This document shows, in pieces, positions 12,813 through 47,323 of a stretch of 64,000 bases of DNA; the first letter of the stretch is position 1; every line of letters starts with the position of its first letter. The notes beneath the pieces were generated by a model that was not told where the DNA came from, did not search any database, and saw only the letters and a program-made list of their open reading frames with translations. The DNA lies in the NCBI GenBank assembly GCA_946803715.1, contig CAMPET010000124.1, forward strand, positions 62,001 to 126,000, written 5' to 3'. This stretch comes from Beroe ovata (lineage: Eukaryota; Ctenophora; Nuda; Beroida; Beroidae). A program made the translations under genes and the position numbers.

Positions 12813-12938
12813 GGCATGGCTGTGCACACGTTGCGCGCCCCTGTTCTACTCAGTGAACTGAAAAGTCGTAGAAAGGACCACGGAGACGCGCAGCGCGCGC
12901 GGAGTATTTGGGTCACGCAGCGCGGGAACAGGCATGGC
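12813..12938 (-). mobile_element. Family B MITE (110 bp) with 8-bp target duplication
   Basis: The element at 12821-12930 starts TGTGCACACGTTGCGCG and ends CGCAGCGCGGGAACA, with imperfect terminal inverted repeats beginning TGT and ending ACA. It is flanked on both sides by the 8-bp direct repeat ggcatggc (12813-12820 and 12931-12938). Two further copies lie at 41102-41218 and 41281-41380. It has no coding capacity and must depend on a transposase made elsewhere. An 8-bp duplication fits hAT, P or Merlin-type enzymes. Confidence 0.85.
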
Positions 12939-36515: not shown

Positions 36516-39500
36516 ATGGAATCAGTCGTTACATTTGATAAACCGCTATCGCACAATGGTGACGATCTATCTGGCTCAGGTATTATACGATTGTACTTAT
36601 TCATTATTCATATCATCATCATTTTAGATAACTCTCATTTCCGTCCCATCTGTCATTTCTGTCCAACGATTGGGAGGAATGTTATCACTAAGTTTAATCT
36701 AACTGGTCGTTACCTATGCGGCATAGTATGCTATCCAGTGAATAAATAGACCAGCTCAAGACTAGATACATATTTTCAGATGAAGATGATAGCCTATCAG
36801 ATATAATGACGGCGGTTGACAAGGTTACTGATAAACTCGGTCTCACGCTTGACACGTTAGTATTATCATTTGGATCCTCGACCAATCATAGCAACATTAT
36901 CCTCCCTTTCAACTTCAATCCTCCTTTTCAACTTTAATATCAGATTGTCAGACCATATTCTAGCGATAATCGTGACGAGCGTTAGCTCAGCATCACATTA
37001 TAGTTATCATCATCAGTACTGAACGACAGTCAGTCACTCTAAATATTTTGCAGGGCTGAAAACATCACTCCATCAGCAACAATACTTCTCGATCTTCCTG
37101 ACACACCGGATAATGAACGTGTTTCGTTCATCTCCGATTTCCCTGTCCTGAACCTCATAGAGCTGGTGCAAATCAACGAGACTGTGGTCGTCAGTGACTC
37201 TGAGTCGACCCCACGCGGGGGACCCGATGGTATGATATTCTGTGAGGACCCGTCCCCTGATGGGCTGCATCAGGAAACAGTGAATGGGCTTGTTGGAATG
37301 GATTGTACAGAGCAAAATTTGGATAACCACGCAATTAGGTATGATTGATTAACATTCCTCTTAACTCGCCTTCTCTGCTCACTTTTATTTGAATTGTAGA
37401 CGAAAAACGCAAATTATAATAACTGTATTATAACAACAACTGCCATTTTTTCAGCAATGGTCTGGACGGAGTTTCCATAGCAACCGCAAAAACAGAAGTC
37501 CATCATAAGTCGAGTTCAGACATAACGGACAATTTCGGAGAGAATTTTTTGGTTCACAGCATCGAATCCACTGAAGACAATCATGCTTTACCTATCCATG
37601 ATAGCGAAACAGAGATTGAAGCCGGAATCGTTGCTCCTGTCTCTTCAGCAAGAACTCAGAGCTCAGAAGTAGGGTCTCTGTTGAGAAACGGTACTGACAC
37701 TGATGACGAAATACCGGAATCGATCCAGATTCAATCCATGGTCTCGTCGCCCTTCCCCATCATCCCATCCCTCAATTCAGTAAAATCTGACGTGTTCTCT
37801 TCCACAACGGAATCAGAATTCGGTCTAGAAGACACATCAGTCGTTTCGACAACTTCTGTAAACTCTGAGCCCGTTCTCGAGGCTGTACCAGGGCAGAGGG
37901 GTCAATACGAGATTATAATCGATTCTGATCGTGGTGATATGACTTGCACTAAACTGAGCGATGAGGGGACCACTCCAACTGACCAGAGTGAACTGGCGAC
38001 ATTTGACACGATTCCCGTGCCGAGCGCGGTCATCAGGCGTGATTCCGACATCTCGCTGTCATCTTCAGAGTGCTCGACAGAGATGTATCACTCGGAGTGT
38101 CAGGTCATGACTTTCCGATCAGCCGAGGACAATAACTCGAGTTCACGTTCATCTATCTGCTCTGATACTGACATTGTGGAGAGCATGGGGAAGTTGAATG
38201 AGATGAAGAGGGAACTCTTCACAAGGGAGGATGCTAAGGAATACCTTGATATTCTGCAGTCAATGGAGGTCGACGCAATGGCAGCAATTCCACATGATTC
38301 GACTAGTTGTGACTTGATGTGCTTGAACGAGGAACAAGTTGATGACTCAAACATCAAAGCATTTGTCGATTCCCAAATCAGAGTAGCGATTGCGAAAACT
38401 CTTGTATCTGAACAGATTTCAGTGGCAATGTGCCAAACGAACTTAGCCCCACAAAATGAGATGGATCACTCGACGCTCTCCTCTAACACGGTAGTGTCCG
38501 ACTGCCCTGCGACTGTTTCCTCCTACCCTAGTTCCGACGGAGAACTAAAACTCCGTGACGTTTCTGTGACAGAAACACAGCCCGTCAACTGCGAGAGTCT
38601 GAGTAAACTTGAACATGACGAGACTGCATTTTACTCTGTGAATTCCAGCTCAAGTAATAGCCTGCTTTCATCAAGAAGTCCCGGTGAGGTCAATGATATG
38701 GAAAGTGGGGTGAATACTGGAAACAGTTCAGATTTGCATAATGAAGCGTGTGTCAAGGAGAATGCTCATGTTGATGACATTCCGGAGGGAACACTAATTT
38801 CAGCATTACCTGTGACGAGTTCTGATGAGGGCTCCATCATCCAGTATGTCGAACCAGAATCCCTTGACGAAGACTCAGAGATATATTGTACATTTGCATT
38901 GAATGCTGTTTCAGATGCCTCTATCAGTGGAATCGAGGCTAAGGCAACTATCATAGAGGATCACGATGCTTCAGATCTCTCTATGGGAGATGTGGATTTG
39001 GTTACCTCAACTCCAAAGCAACCAGAGTCCAAGATACCAGAAATTCCAACAATCATAATTGATCCTTCTTCTGAAGCATCGGGGAAAGGGGCATCTAATC
39101 AGATTTACTCTGATAGCTCCAGTTTATCTGAAGAAGATGGTTTCTGTGAGTCAGAAGCCATGCAGTCAATCTTGAACAAGATGACAGGTATTACAAATCA
39201 GACAGCCGAGAATGATCTCAACTCGTCTTCTTTCTCATCTTCCTCTATGTCTACAAGACAAACAGGTGTCATTGATTCGTCTGAAGTTTATCCCAACTCA
39301 ACAGATGAAACTGATGAGGTTTTAGAGAAGGTAGAGAAACTTAAAAATGACTCATCTGCTATTGAAACCGCAGATCAGAGGGAGGGTAATGATGAACAGA
39401 CACCAACAAAAAGCTGTGCTAGATCATCTGATGATTATAGTGAACGTGGCGTGGACTTGGGCATCACACTAGCGCTTAACACTGATTATCCCAATGATGC

Positions 39501-40026
39501 TTCACCTGAGAATGATATTACTGATGAAGGGAACACAGCTGATGACGGAATCAAAAACACCAGGGATTCATTAAGTGCGAGAATGCCACCTCCTAAAACA
39601 CCAACTCTGAGGCTCTTCCTCAAGACAAAGTGGCCTAAGAGAGATCCTGTGGTTGGGAAGAGCTTTGTTGTTGCTTGTAAAGTAAGAATGACTGGTTTCA
39701 CACTAAAAGACAAGGATCTGAAGAACAATGCAACTGTTAGTTTGTATAAGGACAATGAATTACTCACAGTGTCAGGAAAGTTTATCAAGGGTTACTTTGT
39801 GCACAAGATAAAGAAGCCTACAGTGTTTGACAGTGGCTATTACAGATATGTTGTCAATCTCCTAAATTATGAGGCTTCAGAAGAAAAAGAAATAAACATT
39901 CTCCCAAAAGGATCATCAGGTTCAAGTAATGTGAGGTCAATCAGTTCAATAGGATCACTTGGGTCACTTGGATCTCTATTTTCTCTAAACAATAAATCTT
40001 CCAGAATAGATCATGACAATCGGTGA
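36516..40026 (+). CDS. Acidic Ser-rich protein with C-terminal Ig-like domain
   Basis: Four exons: 36516-36579, 36780-36855, 37054-37338 and 37455-40026. Phases sum exactly to 998 residues from the Met at 36516. The frame is open further upstream into the minisatellite, so the true start could be earlier. Nearly all of the protein is Ser/Asp/Glu/Thr-rich low-complexity sequence with no predicted membrane segment. The last ~150 residues, from MPPPKTPTLRLFLKTKWPKR on, are basic and ordered. They include VVGKSFVVACKVRM, VSLYKDNELL and TVFDSGYYRYVVNLL, the last matching the D-x-G-x-Y-x-Y/C pattern of an I-set Ig-like sandwich. The tail is Ser/Gly/Leu-rich (SIGSLGSLGSL). Similar intracellular Ig domains occur in muscle and cytoskeletal proteins, but I cannot name this one. 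Two AATAAA signals follow at 40068-40077. Confidence 0.75.
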
Positions 40027-40604
40027 TATTAAGACTCTTCTCTCATTTAGTATTAGAGTATTGAGCAAATAAATAAAATATAAATATAAGAGTTATGGTA
40101 TTTAACCATCACAATTCACAATATATTAAAAACTGGGCATTCACTACCATTGAAAAAACACCACCTTAACATAGGTGTCCAATATAGAAAAGTAGCAGGT
40201 AGTTAACACTATCTGCGCATTACAAAAGAAAGTACAAAGTTTAGTAACTGGAAAAACTATATGAATTTGATCAGTACCTATACTTCTCACCTCATGTTTG
40301 TTCTTGACAATTTAGCATATGATAGTACTTAATAGATAAATTCTGATCATTCATCATGTTCATGACCAATGAAGAGTTTCCGATTTGCGATATGTACTTG
40401 TGAACCTATGCTGAACCCCCTCTAGCTCTAGAATCGTAACCCAGTTCCTGTGCTGAATTGCTGGGGACCACAGTTAAACACAATATTCGTTTTGAAGTCT
40501 TATCAGAGCTTTGTAGATCTTTGAAGCACATACGTGTACTTAATGCCAATATTAGATAATTGTTTACTTCAATACTTCATGGTGTAGGGTATTTTTTATA
40601 CCGT

Positions 40605-40793
40605 CGCGCACGCTTGTGGGATTTTACCCTACCGTCGGTGCGCGCGATTTTCAATCCGCCCCGGGATAAAATCCCGCCAGGATAAAATCCCGCCAGGATA
40701 AAATCCCGCCAGGATAAAATCCCCCCGGGATAAAATCCGCCAGGGATAAAATCCCGCCAGCAAGGGTAGGGTGAAATCCTACAACGCGCACGC
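40605..40793 (+). mobile_element. Family A MITE, expanded internal repeat, 9-bp target duplication
   Basis: The element at 40614-40784 starts TTGTGGGATTTTACCCTACC and ends with the near reverse complement (GGTAGGGTGAAATCCTACAA), so terminal inverted repeats are 20 bp with two differences. Direct repeats cgcgcacgc (40605-40613 and 40785-40793) flank it. The interior holds about six tandem copies of a ~16-bp unit around GGATAAAATCCCGCCA. The second haplotype copy has one uninterrupted cgcgcacgc at 45545-45553, an empty site. Confidence 0.9.
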
Positions 40794-40894
40794 AAGATCC
40801 ATGATTCTCGCGAGATCAGAATCAAAGGTCAGATCAGATAAAATCTGACAAATTTTACTGTGAACTTGAAAGTCGCAGAAACTTATCAGATTTT

Positions 40895-40968
40895 CCCAAA
40901 TGTTATATGTCTACTGTTTCTCGCGCGCGGCGCGCGCGCAAGAAACAGTGGACTGTTCATGTCGGGCA
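40895..40968. mobile_element. Diverged copy of the palindromic foldback element
   Basis: The words ctactgtttctcgcgcgcgg and cgcgcgcaagaaacagtgga form an inverted repeat equivalent to the core of the 82-bp palindrome at 12963-13044, with mismatches in the outer arms. The same diverged copy is present in the second haplotype at about 45651-45735, so this insertion is older than the split of the two copies. Confidence 0.7.
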
Positions 40969-41093
40969 ATGTTAACCGGCCATCCGCTGCAGATGCAAGC
41001 CGCGAAGCTAAGTCATAGGCCATAAGCATCAGTCAAATCAGATTTTATCTGACCTCTGTTTAATTTCTCGCGCGCGACGCGCGCGCGCCTTCC

Positions 41094-41226
41094 TCGAAGG
41101 CTGTTCCCGCGCTGCGTGACCCAAATACTCCGCGCGCGCTGCGCGTCTCCGTGGTTTGGTTTCCTTTCTACGACTTTTCAGTTCACTGAGTAGAATAGGG
41201 GCGCGCAACGTGTGCACATCGAAGGC
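41094..41226 (+). mobile_element. Family B MITE (117 bp) with 8-bp target duplication
   Basis: The element at 41102-41218 starts TGTTCCCGCGCTGCGTG and ends AACGTGTGCACA. It is the reverse orientation of the copy at 12821-12930. Direct repeats tcgaaggc flank it (41094-41101 and 41219-41226). The second haplotype has a single tcgaaggc at about 45964-45971 with no element, an empty site. Confidence 0.9.
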
Positions 41227-41272
41227 CGAAACAGGCTGCTTCGGCTTTTGATGAAGGCGCGCGCGCATGAAA

Positions 41273-41388
41273 CAGGTCAGTGTGCACACGTTGCGCGCCC
41301 CTGTTCTACTCAGTGAACTGAAAAGTCGTAGAAAGGAGCGCGCGCGCGGAGTATTTGGGTCACGCAGCGCGGGATCAACACAGGTCAG
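41273..41388 (-). mobile_element. Family B MITE (100 bp) with 8-bp target duplication
   Basis: The element at 41281-41380 starts TGTGCACACGTTGCGCG and ends with ACA after GCAGCGCGGGATCA. Direct repeats caggtcag flank it (41273-41280 and 41381-41388). It lies only 54 bp from the previous family B copy, in the opposite orientation, so the pair forms a larger inverted repeat. The second haplotype reads straight through one caggtcag near 46017-46024. Confidence 0.9.
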
Positions 41389-41751
41389 GTAGCATCTGAC
41401 ATTCTGACAAGAACACACATAAACAAATCATTACGTGCATGAAAAATCATTGTCAGGTAGCATCTGACATTCTGACAAGAACACACATAAACAAATCATN
41501 TATCTGATTTGACCGGCTAAGCGGCCACGCGCGCGAGAAACAGAGGTCAGACATCAGATATTCAGATAAAAATCTGACAATGCAATGTGTTCTTTTCAAT
41601 AATGCAATGTACTGTGTTGGTTTCAGTGCTTTAGAGTAATGAGATCAGAGATGGTTGTTGTTGCTATAATCGTTAGACAATCAAAAATCGATTAGGTTTT
41701 CTATTCACACTTTTCTGCTGCCAACTAAGTAATTTAGTAATCAAATTTGAG

Positions 41752-42798
41752 ATGGCCTCCAGTATTCAAAGTGGAAGAATATTTTGTCCTCCTACTGAAA
41801 CAGAAGACAATGGTCTTGACACAGATGGGCAGGGTGAGAAGGAGAAGGTTGTCTATTCTGATGGAAGCGATTGGACAGTGGTAGGCAATGGGAGAAAGAG
41901 GAAAGGTAAGACTTACTCAAGAAAGAAGGAATGCACTGCAATTGAAATTTCACTACCTATATCAAGCCCAGATGCAAAGATACCTAAATGTTCCACCCCA
42001 ATGAAAGCTGGTGATGAATGTGTATGTGGTCAGTTGACCAATGAAGGGGATTCAATACAGTGTGCCAAGTGTAGCATGGTGTACCACATAGATTGTGTTA
42101 ATCTGACTGGACTTTCACCAGATCATATAAACTTACTTAATAATTGGTGGTGTTTTGAATGTGTAAGCTCCAAGTTCTCTTCTGGACATAAAGTAATCAG
42201 GAGAATTGTCAGAGAGGAACTAAAGGCAGTGAGACAGGACATAGCTGATGTTAGAGAAGACCTGGTATTTGAAACCAAATCAGTCCAATCAGGGGTGAGA
42301 AAAGAGGTTAAGTCCTACGCTGAAGCTATGAGAACAAATCACAAGGAGGTAATGGAGGCAGCAGCAGCTCCTGCACTTGTTAAGAATGTGTGCCAGACCA
42401 TGAACGTTGAGAAGATTGAGAGAGAAAAGCGACAGAGAAATGTGGTTATATCCCATGTTCCAGAAGCACCAGCATCCTTGAGTGGTGAACAACGCAAGAC
42501 ACATGACTTGCAATACATCTGTTCAGAGAAACTTGGCATGAAGCAAGATGAAATAGTAACCTGCTTCAGGGCTGGTAAAGTGAAGAAAGATGACAATGGA
42601 AACATGCTACCCAGACCCTTGGTTGTGATGATGAGATCAGTAGTGCATGCAAATTATTGGCATAATGATGGAAAAGGATTTCATATGGGTATCCATTGGG
42701 TTAATGAAGATCTTTGTAAAGCAGATCGGGATGCAAGGTTTTTTCTTCGACAGCAGAGAAGAAACAGACAACAACAACTCCACCAAAGGCAGACGTAG
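41752..42798 (+). CDS. CR1-like retrotransposon ORF1 with PHD finger
   Basis: A 348-residue ORF1. The first ~85 residues are basic and Ser/Thr-rich. A PHD-type zinc finger follows at about 86-140: CVCGQ, CAKCSMVYHIDCV and WWCFEC, giving the Cys4-His-Cys3 ligands. A coiled-coil stretch (about 150-225) and a region resembling the RRM-like part of LINE ORF1 proteins (NVVISHVPEAPASLSGEQRK and on) complete it. PHD-bearing ORF1 proteins are known in CR1/L2-type LINEs and are thought to act in RNA binding or chromatin targeting. The C-terminus is Gln/Arg-rich. The stop TAG at 42796 falls inside the ORF2 reading frame, which is open from at least 42732. Confidence 0.85.
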   Translation: MASSIQSGRIFCPPTETEDNGLDTDGQGEKEKVVYSDGSDWTVVGNGRKRKGKTYSRKKECTAIEISLPISSPDAKIPKCSTPMKAGDECVCGQLTNEGDSIQCAKCSMVYHIDCVNLTGLSPDHINLLNNWWCFECVSSKFSSGHKVIRRIVREELKAVRQDIADVREDLVFETKSVQSGVRKEVKSYAEAMRTNHKEVMEAAAAPALVKNVCQTMNVEKIEREKRQRNVVISHVPEAPASLSGEQRKTHDLQYICSEKLGMKQDEIVTCFRAGKVKKDDNGNMLPRPLVVMMRSVVHANYWHNDGKGFHMGIHWVNEDLCKADRDARFFLRQQRRNRQQQLHQRQT

Positions 42799-44646
42799 TC
42801 AAAAAGAGACATCTGAGAGCATACTATACTAATGCTAATGGTCTGTATGGGAAGTTGACAGAGTTATGTCTTCTAGCCAAGCAAGAAAACTTAGACATTA
42901 TCTGTGTTAGTGAATCACACTTTCATGATGGTCTTGAAGATGCTGAGACCCATATACCTGGATTCAATATCTTCAAAGCAAATAGAGACTTTAAGCTTGA
43001 TACAACTAAGGGGTCAAGAAAAACAAGTGAGAAGGGTGGTTCTGTCATTTACCTGCGTGATAACCTATCAGTTGTTGAAGGAACTTTTGACACAGGAATT
43101 GATTCAACATCTGTGACAATAGAGACTGATGTTGGCAATATTTTGATTGGATGCTTCTACAGGTCTATGTCTCTCAATGATGCCCAAAACGCTGAGTTTC
43201 TGGAATATTTTTCTAGTAAGGTTTCTAAAAACAATGAGGATACAGAAAAGATCCTGTTTGGAGACTTCAACTGTCCTGATCTGTCATGGACAACAGGGAG
43301 TTTGAAAAGTCCTGATGGATCAGTTGATAAATCAGTATGTTTCCAACAGAAACTTCTAGAGGTAATACATGATGCAGGTCTAGACTGGCTAATCACCAAT
43401 GAAGTAACTAGGAGGAGAAAGTTCGGGACCTCAGTCCAAGAAAGCACACTTGATCAAGTATTCTGCTCTGATGACGCACTCGTGAGTGAATTCAAAATAT
43501 CTAGTCCACTTGGTAACAGTGATCATGTAGCAATTGTATCAGATCTGAATATATTCCTGCCCTCCAATGAACACTGTCATGTGATTGATGATGTTAAGAG
43601 AAACTGGGCTAAATATAGTCTTGAGGACCTGCTTACAGCTGCACAGGATATAGATTGGAATTTCAGTTCCAATTTAGACACTATGAGTATTGAAGAAGCC
43701 TGGGATGAATTGCATACCAAGTTGCTCCAGGTAACTGATAGTGTTTCAGTATCTGACTCTAAAAAGTCTGATAACTGCAACATGCCTTGGATGAACTCTA
43801 GTTTGAAGCGTGCTATTAAACAAAAGAACTTAGCTTGGGCTAAATTTGATGTTCAGCCATCTAATGATAACCTCAGTTTGGCACTATCAAAGCAGACTGC
43901 ACTAAAAGATATCGAAACAAAGTCAAAAATGAAGTATGAGAAGCTGATCACAAGTGATTTGAAGCACAACCCCAAGGCATTTTACTCATATCTTCGTAGC
44001 AGGAGGAGAGTCAAATCTATGGTTACAGTACTGAGGCAAGAATGTGGTACCCTAACGAAAAACGACAATGAGACTGCTGAATGCTTAGCAGATTCCTTCA
44101 GTTCAGTTTTTGTCAAAGAACCCTTAGGCCCCTTGCCACAGGAATGTTTCAAATCATGCGATAATAACATATGTGATATGGACATCAAAGAATCCGATGT
44201 TTGCAAGGAGCTCAGATCTTTGGATGTCTACAAAAGTTTTGGTCCTGACAAACTTCATCCTAAGCTTCTCAAAGCTCTTGCTGAGAACGATAGTTTCGTG
44301 GAGAGTCTTACCAAGTTATATTTGAAGTGTGTGAAAGAAGAATGTATCCCAAAGATTTGGAAAGTGGCAAACGTTGTTGCTTTACATAAAAAGGACTCCA
44401 AATTAGATCCAATGAATTATAGACCTGTGTCGTTAACTTGCATACTCTGTAAGATTTATGAGAAGTTCGTCAGAAAACATATCTTAAATTTCGTAGGTGA
44501 TAAGATAAATGTGAATCAGCATGGATTTGTTAATGAAAAATCTTGTTTTTCTAACTTATTAGAAACTGTTGATGCAATAATTAATATGCTTGAGTCAGGA
44601 TGTCCTGTAGATATCTTATACTTTGACTTCTGGAAAGCTTTCGACA
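42799..44646 (+). CDS. CR1-like retrotransposon ORF2: endonuclease and truncated reverse transcriptase
   Basis: The frame is open from before 42799, with the first AUG at 42855. It starts with an apurinic-type endonuclease (EEP): ANGLYGKLTEL, CVSESHF, FGDFNCPD, TLDQVF and the catalytic-type NSDHVAI are all present. The reverse transcriptase follows, with SFGPDKLHPKLLK, NYRPVSLTCILCKIYE, NQHGFVNEKSC and then the start of the active-site A motif (ILYFDFWKAFD). The sequence ends there at the N at 44647. The YADD motif and everything downstream are missing, so this copy as assembled cannot encode an active enzyme. The endonuclease and RT types place it in the CR1/jockey group; closer placement needs alignment. 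Confidence 0.9.
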
Positions 44647-44647
44647 N

Positions 44648-45151
44648 GATGAAGGGAACACAGCTGATGACGGAATCAAAAACACCAGGGATTCATTAAG
44701 TGCGAGAATGCCACCTCCTAAAACACCAACTCTGAGGCTCTTCCTCAAGACAAAGTGGCCTAAGAGAGATCCTGTGGTTGGGAAGAGCTTTGTTGTTGCT
44801 TGTAAAGTAAGAATGACTGGTTTCACACTAAAAGACAAGGATCTGAAGAACAATGCAACTGTTAGTTTGTATAAGGACAATGAATTACTCACAGTGTCAG
44901 GAAAGTTTATCAAGGGTTACTTTGTGCACAAGATAAAGAAGCCTACAGTGTTTGACAGTGGCTATTACAGATATGTTGTCAATCTCCTAAATTATGAGGC
45001 TTCAGAAGAAAAAGAAATAAACATTCTCCCAAAAGGATCATCAGGTTCAAGTAATGTGAGGTCAATCAGTTCAATAGGATCACTTGGGTCACTTGGATCT
45101 CTATTTTCTCTAAACAATAAATCTTCCAGAATAGATCATGACAATCGGTGA
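44648..45151 (+). pseudogene. Second copy of the 3' coding end of the Ig-like gene
   Basis: This repeats 39523-40026 and encodes the last ~165 residues, including the Ig-like domain, in the same frame with the same TGA. It has no upstream exons because it starts at an N. It is most likely the other allele rather than a separate gene. After the stop this copy lacks about 170 bp that carry both AATAAA signals in the first copy. Confidence 0.8.
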
Positions 45152-45806
45152 TATTAAGACTCTTCTCTCATTTAGTATTAGAGTATTGAGCAAAGTTTAG
45201 CAACTGGAAAAATTATATGAATTTGATCAGTACCTATACTTCTCACCTCATTTAGCATATGATAGTACTTAATAGATAAATTCTGATCATTCATCATGTT
45301 CATGATCAATGAAGAGTTTCCGATTTGCGATATGTACTTGTGAACCTATGCTGAACCCCCTCTAGCTCTAGAATCGTAACCCAGTTCCTGTGCTGAATTG
45401 CTGGGGACCACAGTTAAACACAATATTCGTTTCAAAGTCTTATCAGAGCTTTGTAGATCTTTGAAGCACATACGTGTACTTCATGCCAATATTAGACAAT
45501 TGTTCACTTCAATACTTCATGATGTAGGGTATTTTTTATACCGTCGCGCACGCAAGATCCATGATTCTCGCGAGATCAGAATCAAAGGTCAGATCAGATA
45601 AAATCTGACAAATTTTACTGTCAACTTGAAAGTCGCAGAAACTTATCAGATTTTCCCAAATGTTATATATATGTCCACTGTTTCTCGCGCGCGGCGCGCG
45701 CGCAAGAATTACAGTGGACTGTTCATGTCGGGCAATGCTAACCGGCCATCCGCTGCAGATGCAAGCCGCGAAGCTAAGCCATAGGCCATGAGCATCAGTC
45801 AAATTA

Positions 45807-45919
45807 GATTTTATTTGTAGGATTTCACCCTACCCTTGCTGGCGGGATTTTATCCCTGGCAAGGGGCGGATTGAAAATCGCGCGCACCGAGGGTAGGGTA
45901 AAATCCTACAAGATTTTAT
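45807..45919 (-). mobile_element. Family A MITE (97 bp) with 8-bp target duplication
   Basis: The element at 45815-45911 starts TTGTAGGATTTCACCCTACC and ends GGTAGGGTAAAATCCTACAA. It is the opposite orientation of 40614-40784 and carries just one GGATAAAATCCCGCCA-like unit. Direct repeats gattttat flank it (45807-45814 and 45912-45919). The first haplotype copy has a single gattttat at about 41041-41048 with no element, so this insertion is unique to the second copy. Confidence 0.9.
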
Positions 45920-46546
45920 CTGACCTCTGTTTAATTTCTCGCGCGCGACGCGCGCGCGCCTTCTTCGAAGGCCGAAACAGGCTGCTTTGGCTTTTGATGA
46001 AGGCGCGCGCGCGTGAAACAGGTCAGGTAGCATCTGACAAGAACACACATAAACAAATCATTACGTGCATGAAAAATCATTGTTGTACTAGGTGATGTTT
46101 ATTTCCGTTATCTATTTGTTGTCCTGACTCCTGATTGATTTGTTGTTTCTTATTGAAATTTGTTGTTTCTATTCTTGTGGTTGAAAAATTATGGCTGTAA
46201 GTGTAGCTGGTCATAGAATAGCTGAATAGAGTTGCCTGAAGGCAAAAATTTTTGTTTATTTTATTTATCTATGATGATCACTTCATTCCCCCATTTGTAG
46301 AACTGGTACCTAGTGTGTCGCTTCCATTTTAGGTCATGTCGTTTATAGTGCAAAATTGCTCATAATCTCAATTGTGAATTAGTAGCTTTCATCAATAAAC
46401 CTTTCAGTCATTCTACCTAAGAACCTCATACAACAGAAGATATTAATTTGACTAGAAATGCAAATCAGGTATCAGTTTGGATTCTATTGACTGAACAAGT
46501 AAATTGCATATGAGGTGCTACATCTTAATATACTATCAACAGAACT

Positions 46547-47323
46547 ATGGGTAATGAACATGCTAAACTCTCTCCTGAGGAGCTCAGGGAACTTGAAGAT
46601 TCAACATATTTTGACAAACGTGAACTTCAAAAATGGTTCAGAGAGTTCATGAAGGACTGCCCATCTGGATCACTCAGTAAGGATGACTTTATAAGGTAAA
46701 ATTCTTAACCATGAACAGGTACAGTGATTGCAATGTACAAGAAATGCTCACTCTGTGGCGGATGATATGTAAATAATTTGTTTCAGGATATACCAGCAGT
46801 TTTTTCCACAAGGCAATCCTTCTCAATTTGCAAGTCATGTTTTCAAAGTTTTTGATTCCAACTCTGATGGTTGTATTTCATTCAAAGAGTTCATTGTAGC
46901 TCTTAGTGTAACAAGTAAGGGTACATTGGATGAGAAGCTAGATTGGGCTTTCTCTCTGTATGATCTTGATGGAGATGGGTAAGTTTGGTTGTTTTTTCTC
47001 ATGTGTGGTTAATTGGCTATTTTATATCAGAGTTTTAATAGCTGTAGCCCGTACACTCAATTTATTTCAGTTTTATTAGCAATGCAGAAATGTTGAATAT
47101 TGTGAACAGTATCTATGAGATGGTTGGTAACATGCTGATTCTTCCAAAAGATGAGGACACTCCCCAGAAAAGAGTGAAGAAGATATTCTTCCAGATGGAC
47201 CATGATAAGGATGGACGACTCACCCGGCAAGAGTTCAAGGAGGGCAGCAAAATGGATCCATTCATTGTTCAAGCTCTCTCAATAGACTATGACCATTCAA
47301 AAATAGATCCTAAGAAGTCATAA
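46547..47323 (+). CDS. NCS1: Neuronal calcium sensor 1 / frequenin-type EF-hand protein
   Basis: Three exons: 46547-46695, 46787-46978 and 47071-47323, giving 197 residues with exact phases. The protein begins MGNEHAKL; the Gly2 context fits N-myristoylation as in this family. The first EF-hand is degenerate around [11 protein letters not shown], which is typical. Three intact loops follow: [24 protein letters not shown] and [12 protein letters not shown]. Family signatures include [32 protein letters not shown] and [14 protein letters not shown]. Such proteins bind calcium and, through a myristoyl switch, act on membrane targets such as PI4-kinase and ion channels. The closest match is NCS1/frequenin rather than recoverin. 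An AATAAA at 47621-47626 is a plausible poly(A) signal. Confidence 0.93.

Follow-up and report, generated by a model that had tools for sequence, protein, structure and literature searches.

Presence and absence of short transposable elements of two families in two copies of one locus, probably alleles, in a Beroe ovata assembly

The genome assembly of the ctenophore Beroe ovata (77.8 Mb in 534 contigs) contains what looks like a duplicated locus, and its two copies differ by four short segments that we read as miniature inverted-repeat transposable elements (MITEs). The window, i.e., the whole stretch of 64,000 nucleotides that was analysed (C124:62001-126000; positions given alone are those of the window), holds a host reading frame of 825 amino acids on the forward strand (37549..40026), which matched no family in a Pfam search and had one relative, 47% identical (an ENA record), among 7,998 scored candidates. 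This frame enters copy 1 of the locus (39523..41453), which comprises the 3′ end of the gene and downstream DNA, and only its final part is found in copy 2 (44648..46083), whose first base stands within the coding frame directly after a single N at 44647. Between that N and another at 41500 lies a piece of a long interspersed nuclear element (LINE)-type retroelement on the forward strand (41501..44646), recognized by profile matches. Specifically, it carries a first open reading frame (ORF1) with a PHD finger (41752-42798, forward strand; PF00628 above cut-off) and an endonuclease and reverse transcriptase frame, also forward, that runs from 42855 to the N at 44647 (PF03372 and PF14529 above cut-off); its reverse transcriptase domain covers profile positions 2-80 of 205 of PF00078 at 25.1 bits, below the cut-off of 29.6. 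An Rfam search of 39000-47000 gave no match.

The four segments fall into two families, A (E1 and E4) and B (E2 and E3). Three are present in copy 1 only: E1 (family A, 171 bp, 40614..40784, reverse strand), which has internal 16-bp tandem units and stands between two copies of the 9-bp target word CGCGCACGC (left 40605..40613, right 40785..40793); E2 (family B, 117 bp, 41102..41218, reverse strand), flanked by the 8-bp duplication TCGAAGGC (41094-41101 and 41219-41226); and E3 (family B, 100 bp, 41281..41380), which lies on the forward strand, opposite in orientation to E2, and is flanked by the 8-bp CAGGTCAG (41273-41280 and 41381-41388). The fourth, E4 (family A, 97 bp, 45815..45911, forward strand and opposite to E1), is present in copy 2 only, with an 8-bp duplication of GATTTTAT (45807-45814 and 45912-45919). 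At 4/4 sites the exact target word occurs twice where the element is present and once where it is absent. When the flanks of each filled site were joined, with one target word retained, and compared with the other copy, mismatches numbered 0/50 for E1, 2/50 for E2 and 2/50 for E4; for E3 the ungapped comparison gave 9/50, with 1 mismatch in the first 38 bases, followed, past the target word, by an 8-bp indel.

A global alignment of 39524-41499 with 44649-46084 has gaps that agree with this distribution, and the elements, target words and empty counterparts described in an earlier sequence-only reading of this DNA, three elements in the first copy and one in the second, were all present at the coordinates it gave. 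That reading had set the block at 39523-41450 / 44648-46084; the paired copies are real, and we correct the ends of homology to 41453 and 46083 (the remainder before the N, 41454-41499, repeats 41386-41431). Its four elements also stand as differences between the copies, in a list that was incomplete, as the alignment has further gaps: a 169-bp stretch, a 16-bp one (40294-40309) and several smaller indels. Gaps excluded, the copies differ by 18 mismatches in 1,325 aligned bases, the first 547 bp being identical and the remainder about 2% divergent. The 169-bp stretch (40066..40234), in copy 1 only and with CAAA at both edges, is either an insertion with a 4-bp duplication or a microhomology deletion in copy 2. 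By eye, the left part of this stretch looks like a repeat that adjoins an A element in another of the loci that we examined (L004; such loci carry L numbers), so that the polymorphism here may extend to a third mobile family.

The ends of these elements recur throughout the genome. The exact A end TTGTAGGATTTYACCCTACC was found 658 + 660 times on the two strands (1,318 end words, not elements, since one A element may hold two), and the exact B end TGTGCACACGTTGCGCGCC 351 + 353 times (704); the reversed patterns of both were found 0 times, and so the four elements are not chance resemblances. Family A has terminal inverted repeats, its 20-bp ends differing at one base, and over its full length E4 is 77% identical to its own reverse complement. 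The ends of B give a weak inverted match (TGTGCACACGTTGCG vs. TGTTCCCGCGCTGCG) that, taken alone, is inconclusive as evidence of terminal inverted repeats. Lengths run from 41 to 336 bp in A, the longest with a nested B element, and are mostly ~75–128 bp in B, of which a further element lies in the window at 12821-12930.

The genome-wide search for terminal repeats that had been proposed as a check found the same ends at other 8–9 bp duplications. Among 59 distinct A elements taken with fixed ends in the loci examined, exact duplications were 9 bp long in 32/59, 8 bp in 10/59, 7 bp in 3/59 and 6 bp in 1/59. Among 66 distinct B left ends in these loci, they were 8 bp in 31/66, 9 bp in 13/66 and 10 and 11 bp in one each, although some of the 9-bp cases are due to one base in common with the element end, and one 8-bp case (L063), without the usual right end, is likely chance. 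No strong motif was seen in A targets (34 sites with an exact 9-bp duplication under a slightly different rule). Given their recurring exact ends and target duplications, mostly of 9 bp for A and of 8 bp for B, we conclude that A and B are ordinary non-autonomous DNA transposons, i.e., MITEs. They resemble MITEs in general in being short, with recurring ends, 8–9 bp duplications, many near-identical copies and nesting, and they differ in the poor terminal inverted repeats of B and in that an autonomous partner was not found.

Nested insertions were noted by eye as A in A (targets in L005, L052, and L065), B in A (L031) and B in B (L038). One A element, at L086:1501-1541, is 41 bp long and so scarcely more than its two 20-bp ends; counted from the usual ends, its duplication measures 6 bp, and if each end is moved in by one base it reads, by eye, as 8 bp. 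This is possibly a very small mobile element, or possibly the product of an internal deletion after insertion.

Both families are abundant, and apparently both are young. Of 1,053 candidates for E4, the best 40 match it at 98–100% identity over the element, and five of these 40, E4 included, stand at 100% (one over 96/97 bases). Among 30 distinct-site 97-bp A copies drawn from the same best 40, four (E4 included) have 0 differences from E4 and 26 have one; the variation lies mostly at position 77, other changes being three singletons. These copies differ from one another by 0.64% per site, a lower divergence than that between the two copies of the locus.

The filled and empty sites could in principle have arisen by loss, with the elements ancestral in both copies and cleanly removed from one. 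Two sequences alone allow perfect excision, and an empty site elsewhere (L080, described below) shows a change of about two bases. Most DNA transposons, however, leave part of the duplication behind when they excise. The unscarred empty sites of the window, with exactly one target word at 4/4, favour insertion, and the near-identity of copies within the 97-bp subfamily is what new insertions would show; we regard excision as very improbable. Still less credible is that the insertions are errors of assembly or polishing that misplaced repeat sequence: the assembly does look faulty here, where there are joins and, at the end of a contig, a local tandem repeat, but exact 8–9 bp duplications of four different words at family-specific ends are not something that misassembly makes. 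The earlier claim of precise, recent insertion by two families is thus borne out by the clean pre-insertion sites and by ends that recur at similar duplications.

What the two copies are is a separate question. Besides one run of 138 Ns, the window contains six single Ns, and we read those at 41500 and 44647 as assembly joins after copy 1 and before copy 2, respectively. The LINE before the second N is cut within its reverse transcriptase domain, so this N probably stands for missing sequence. We counted the distinct direct duplications that were ≥200 bp long and >93% identical in the window and the loci examined—a non-random sample, as L080, L081, and L082 were chosen as looking duplicated or dense in ends. 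There were eight (window, L003, L004, L052, L080, two in L081, and L082). In 7/8, among them that of the window, one edge lies 1 base from a single N; in L052 the distance is 8 bases. Their divergence ranges from ~0.3% to 3% (5/1,802 in L082 up to 10/334 in L004). A shorter duplication (L040, 173 bp) lies in a locus without any N. Of 55 distinct single Ns, 13 have a flanking match of >90% that starts or ends at the N, several of these being short (29–53 bp) or of 91% identity and most loci having been examined over only ~3 kb. No third copy of the locus was found in the genome, which gave only seven matches (38–126 bp, 73–92%), all to one part of it.

Together with the presence of only the frame's end in copy 2, these patterns suggest that the copies are probably two haplotypes placed in tandem by the assembly, copy 1 being allele 1 and copy 2 allele 2, so that the four sites would be polymorphic in the sequenced sample. 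The sequence-only reading had taken them for a duplicated block; since assembly joins bound the block, two haplotypes of a single locus are the better interpretation, and this strengthens that reading's own claim of polymorphism. Alternatively, the copies could be true paralogs, a partial tandem duplication with a LINE between its halves into which the elements inserted afterwards; the MITEs would be the same, their presence and absence would be differences between fixed loci, and polymorphism would not be implied. The shared contig and orientation, the capacity of repeats themselves to break contigs and the identical first 547 bp speak for such paralogs. Against them stand the start of copy 2 directly after an N that also cuts the LINE, the absence of most of the reading frame from copy 2, and the N-edged layout at six other places (L003, L004, L080, L081 twice, and L082) at divergences of ~0.3–3%. 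On balance we consider paralogy unlikely, if clearly less so than excision or error.

Similar false duplications have been described. Ko et al. (2022; PMC9516828) report that divergent haplotypes retained as separate regions were counted as gene gains. The likeness of the present case to these "heterotype" duplications lies in divergent haplotypes that appear as separate regions; here, they stand in tandem within one contig across single Ns, and the pair is used as a comparison of alleles.

Two of the other duplications provide further filled and empty sites. In L004, a 124-bp A element is flanked by AGAATTGAG in copy 1, and the word occurs once in copy 2, where the left flank matches over 45 bp. 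In L080, a B element flanked by GGCCGGGA in copy 1 is missing from copy 2. Some elements in such pairs are shared rather than polymorphic: the duplicated parts of L081 and L082 have B ends, and in L082 one A end, in both copies.

The source of the transposase is less clear. Pfam scans of the genome gave 7 matches to MULE, including loci at C117:88760 and C343:61330, 4 to the hAT dimer, and 3 to IS1595 domains, and none of these could be linked to A or B. A scan for P-type domains gave no match, its controls being silent as well. The one stretch read (L092, 1,424 bp, with an IS1595-like domain) has no convincing A or B end: it lacks a B end, has a single A-like match with 5 mismatches, and its sole inverted pair, of 13 nt, is weak. 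The search for long relatives that encode a transposase covered one deviating kind of exact A end, in which the next base is C and the one after it is anything but T (in E1-type ends the next base is G). There are six such ends, and at their loci the elements were short or the ends unclear. A 1.7-kb arrangement of four A ends (C3) was set aside, as it lies in a near-perfect palindrome (L079:1-3968; C3:759000-763000) with arms of ~1.95 kb that are 99.7% identical. The palindrome is possibly a fold-back assembly chimera. Of the full-length relatives that the sequence-only reading had proposed to look for, then, the transposase domains occur in the genome and none was tied to A or B.

Target duplications of 8–9 bp are made by Mutator/MULE, hAT and Merlin (IS1595-like) transposons. 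Those of Mutator are 8–11 bp and mostly 9 bp, those of hAT are 8 bp and accompany ends of the YARNG type, and those of Merlin are 8–9 bp with ends starting GG. The length in Mutator fits A, MULE domains occur in the genome, and a MULE source for A is thus possible. Family B has mostly 8-bp duplications, as in hAT, but its ends read TGTGC/TGTTC, and A, mostly with 9 bp, has TTGTA, so that the YARNG motif is not matched by either; nor does A or B start with GG, as Merlin ends do. Four words from the ends of A and B had no match in the literature searched.

Taken together, we give a probability of about 80% to the reading that the four segments are MITEs of two unrelated families, recently inserted, in two haplotypes that the assembly laid in tandem. 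Several observations weigh against it. No transposase is tied to either family. No exact duplication of >2 bp accompanies 13/59 A elements—among them L062 and L075, with a 9-bp duplication bearing one mismatch, and L031:1393-1502, an end interrupted by a B element—and none of at least 7 bp accompanies 20/66 B ends. The empty site in L080 is imperfect, about two bases differing (GGGGCCCCGGGA against GGGGGCCGGGA), and the 97-bp copies used to judge age form a sample biased to similarity. As to the haplotypes, assemblies can also break where true tandem repeats begin or end, so that Ns there are not decisive alone; 547 identical bp followed by ~2% divergence could result from conversion between paralogs; and we infer allelism over recent paralogy from the sequence of one sample, whether an individual or a pool.

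On this overall reading, a transposase supplied elsewhere would act in trans on A and B, with a staggered cut of ~9 bp for A or ~8 bp for B whose gap repair would duplicate the target. The assembly would have left the two haplotypes of the sequenced sample in tandem, with a LINE fragment between two joins, and the sites would be presence/absence polymorphisms from recent insertion, the empty state being the ancestral one; if the sample was a single diploid individual, it would be heterozygous at them.

Some smaller features of these loci deserve mention. A GC-rich imperfect hairpin at 45948-46014 (33-bp arms, 85% complementary) contains TCGAAGGCCGAAACAG, which by eye is also in L003 and partly in L090 and is perhaps another small repeat family; the stretch of copy 1 that matches the hairpin contains the target of E2. 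In L003 and L004, the N is followed by 35 bp that were considered as an adapter; the core of this sequence, however, is present in six further loci (L005, L012, L018, L060, L079, and L080), and it is therefore a genomic repeat. In L012 (~1684-1809) and L018 (~1160-1291), telomere-like TTAGGG/TTAGG repeats adjoin a conserved stretch of ~70 bp ending GCACGAGCC. This stretch lies within contigs, near a single N in several loci, and its core is found in eight loci in total (L003, L004, L005, L012, L018, L060, L079, and L080); with the telomere repeats, it may be the end of a retroelement that carries them.

Overall, the biology is that of ordinary transposons, and the locus provides a useful internal comparison. 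Of the earlier claim that the two families are still moving, their youth and the sites that we read as polymorphic hold up, while movement itself is drawn from two sequences. More tentatively, and with rather less than even confidence, the locus may show two MITE families in mid-burst in a small eukaryotic genome, with haplotypes that differ by about one MITE per 4–5 single-base differences (4 insertions vs. 18 substitutions here) and with elements as short as 41 bp (L086) still mobile. What looked like a duplicated locus is probably an artefact of assembly, with two alleles placed side by side, and partial gene duplications edged by single Ns in this assembly may accordingly not be evolutionary events. 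Such false tandem pairs nonetheless give filled and empty alleles from one sample and would thereby offer a direct view of MITE families that are still moving.

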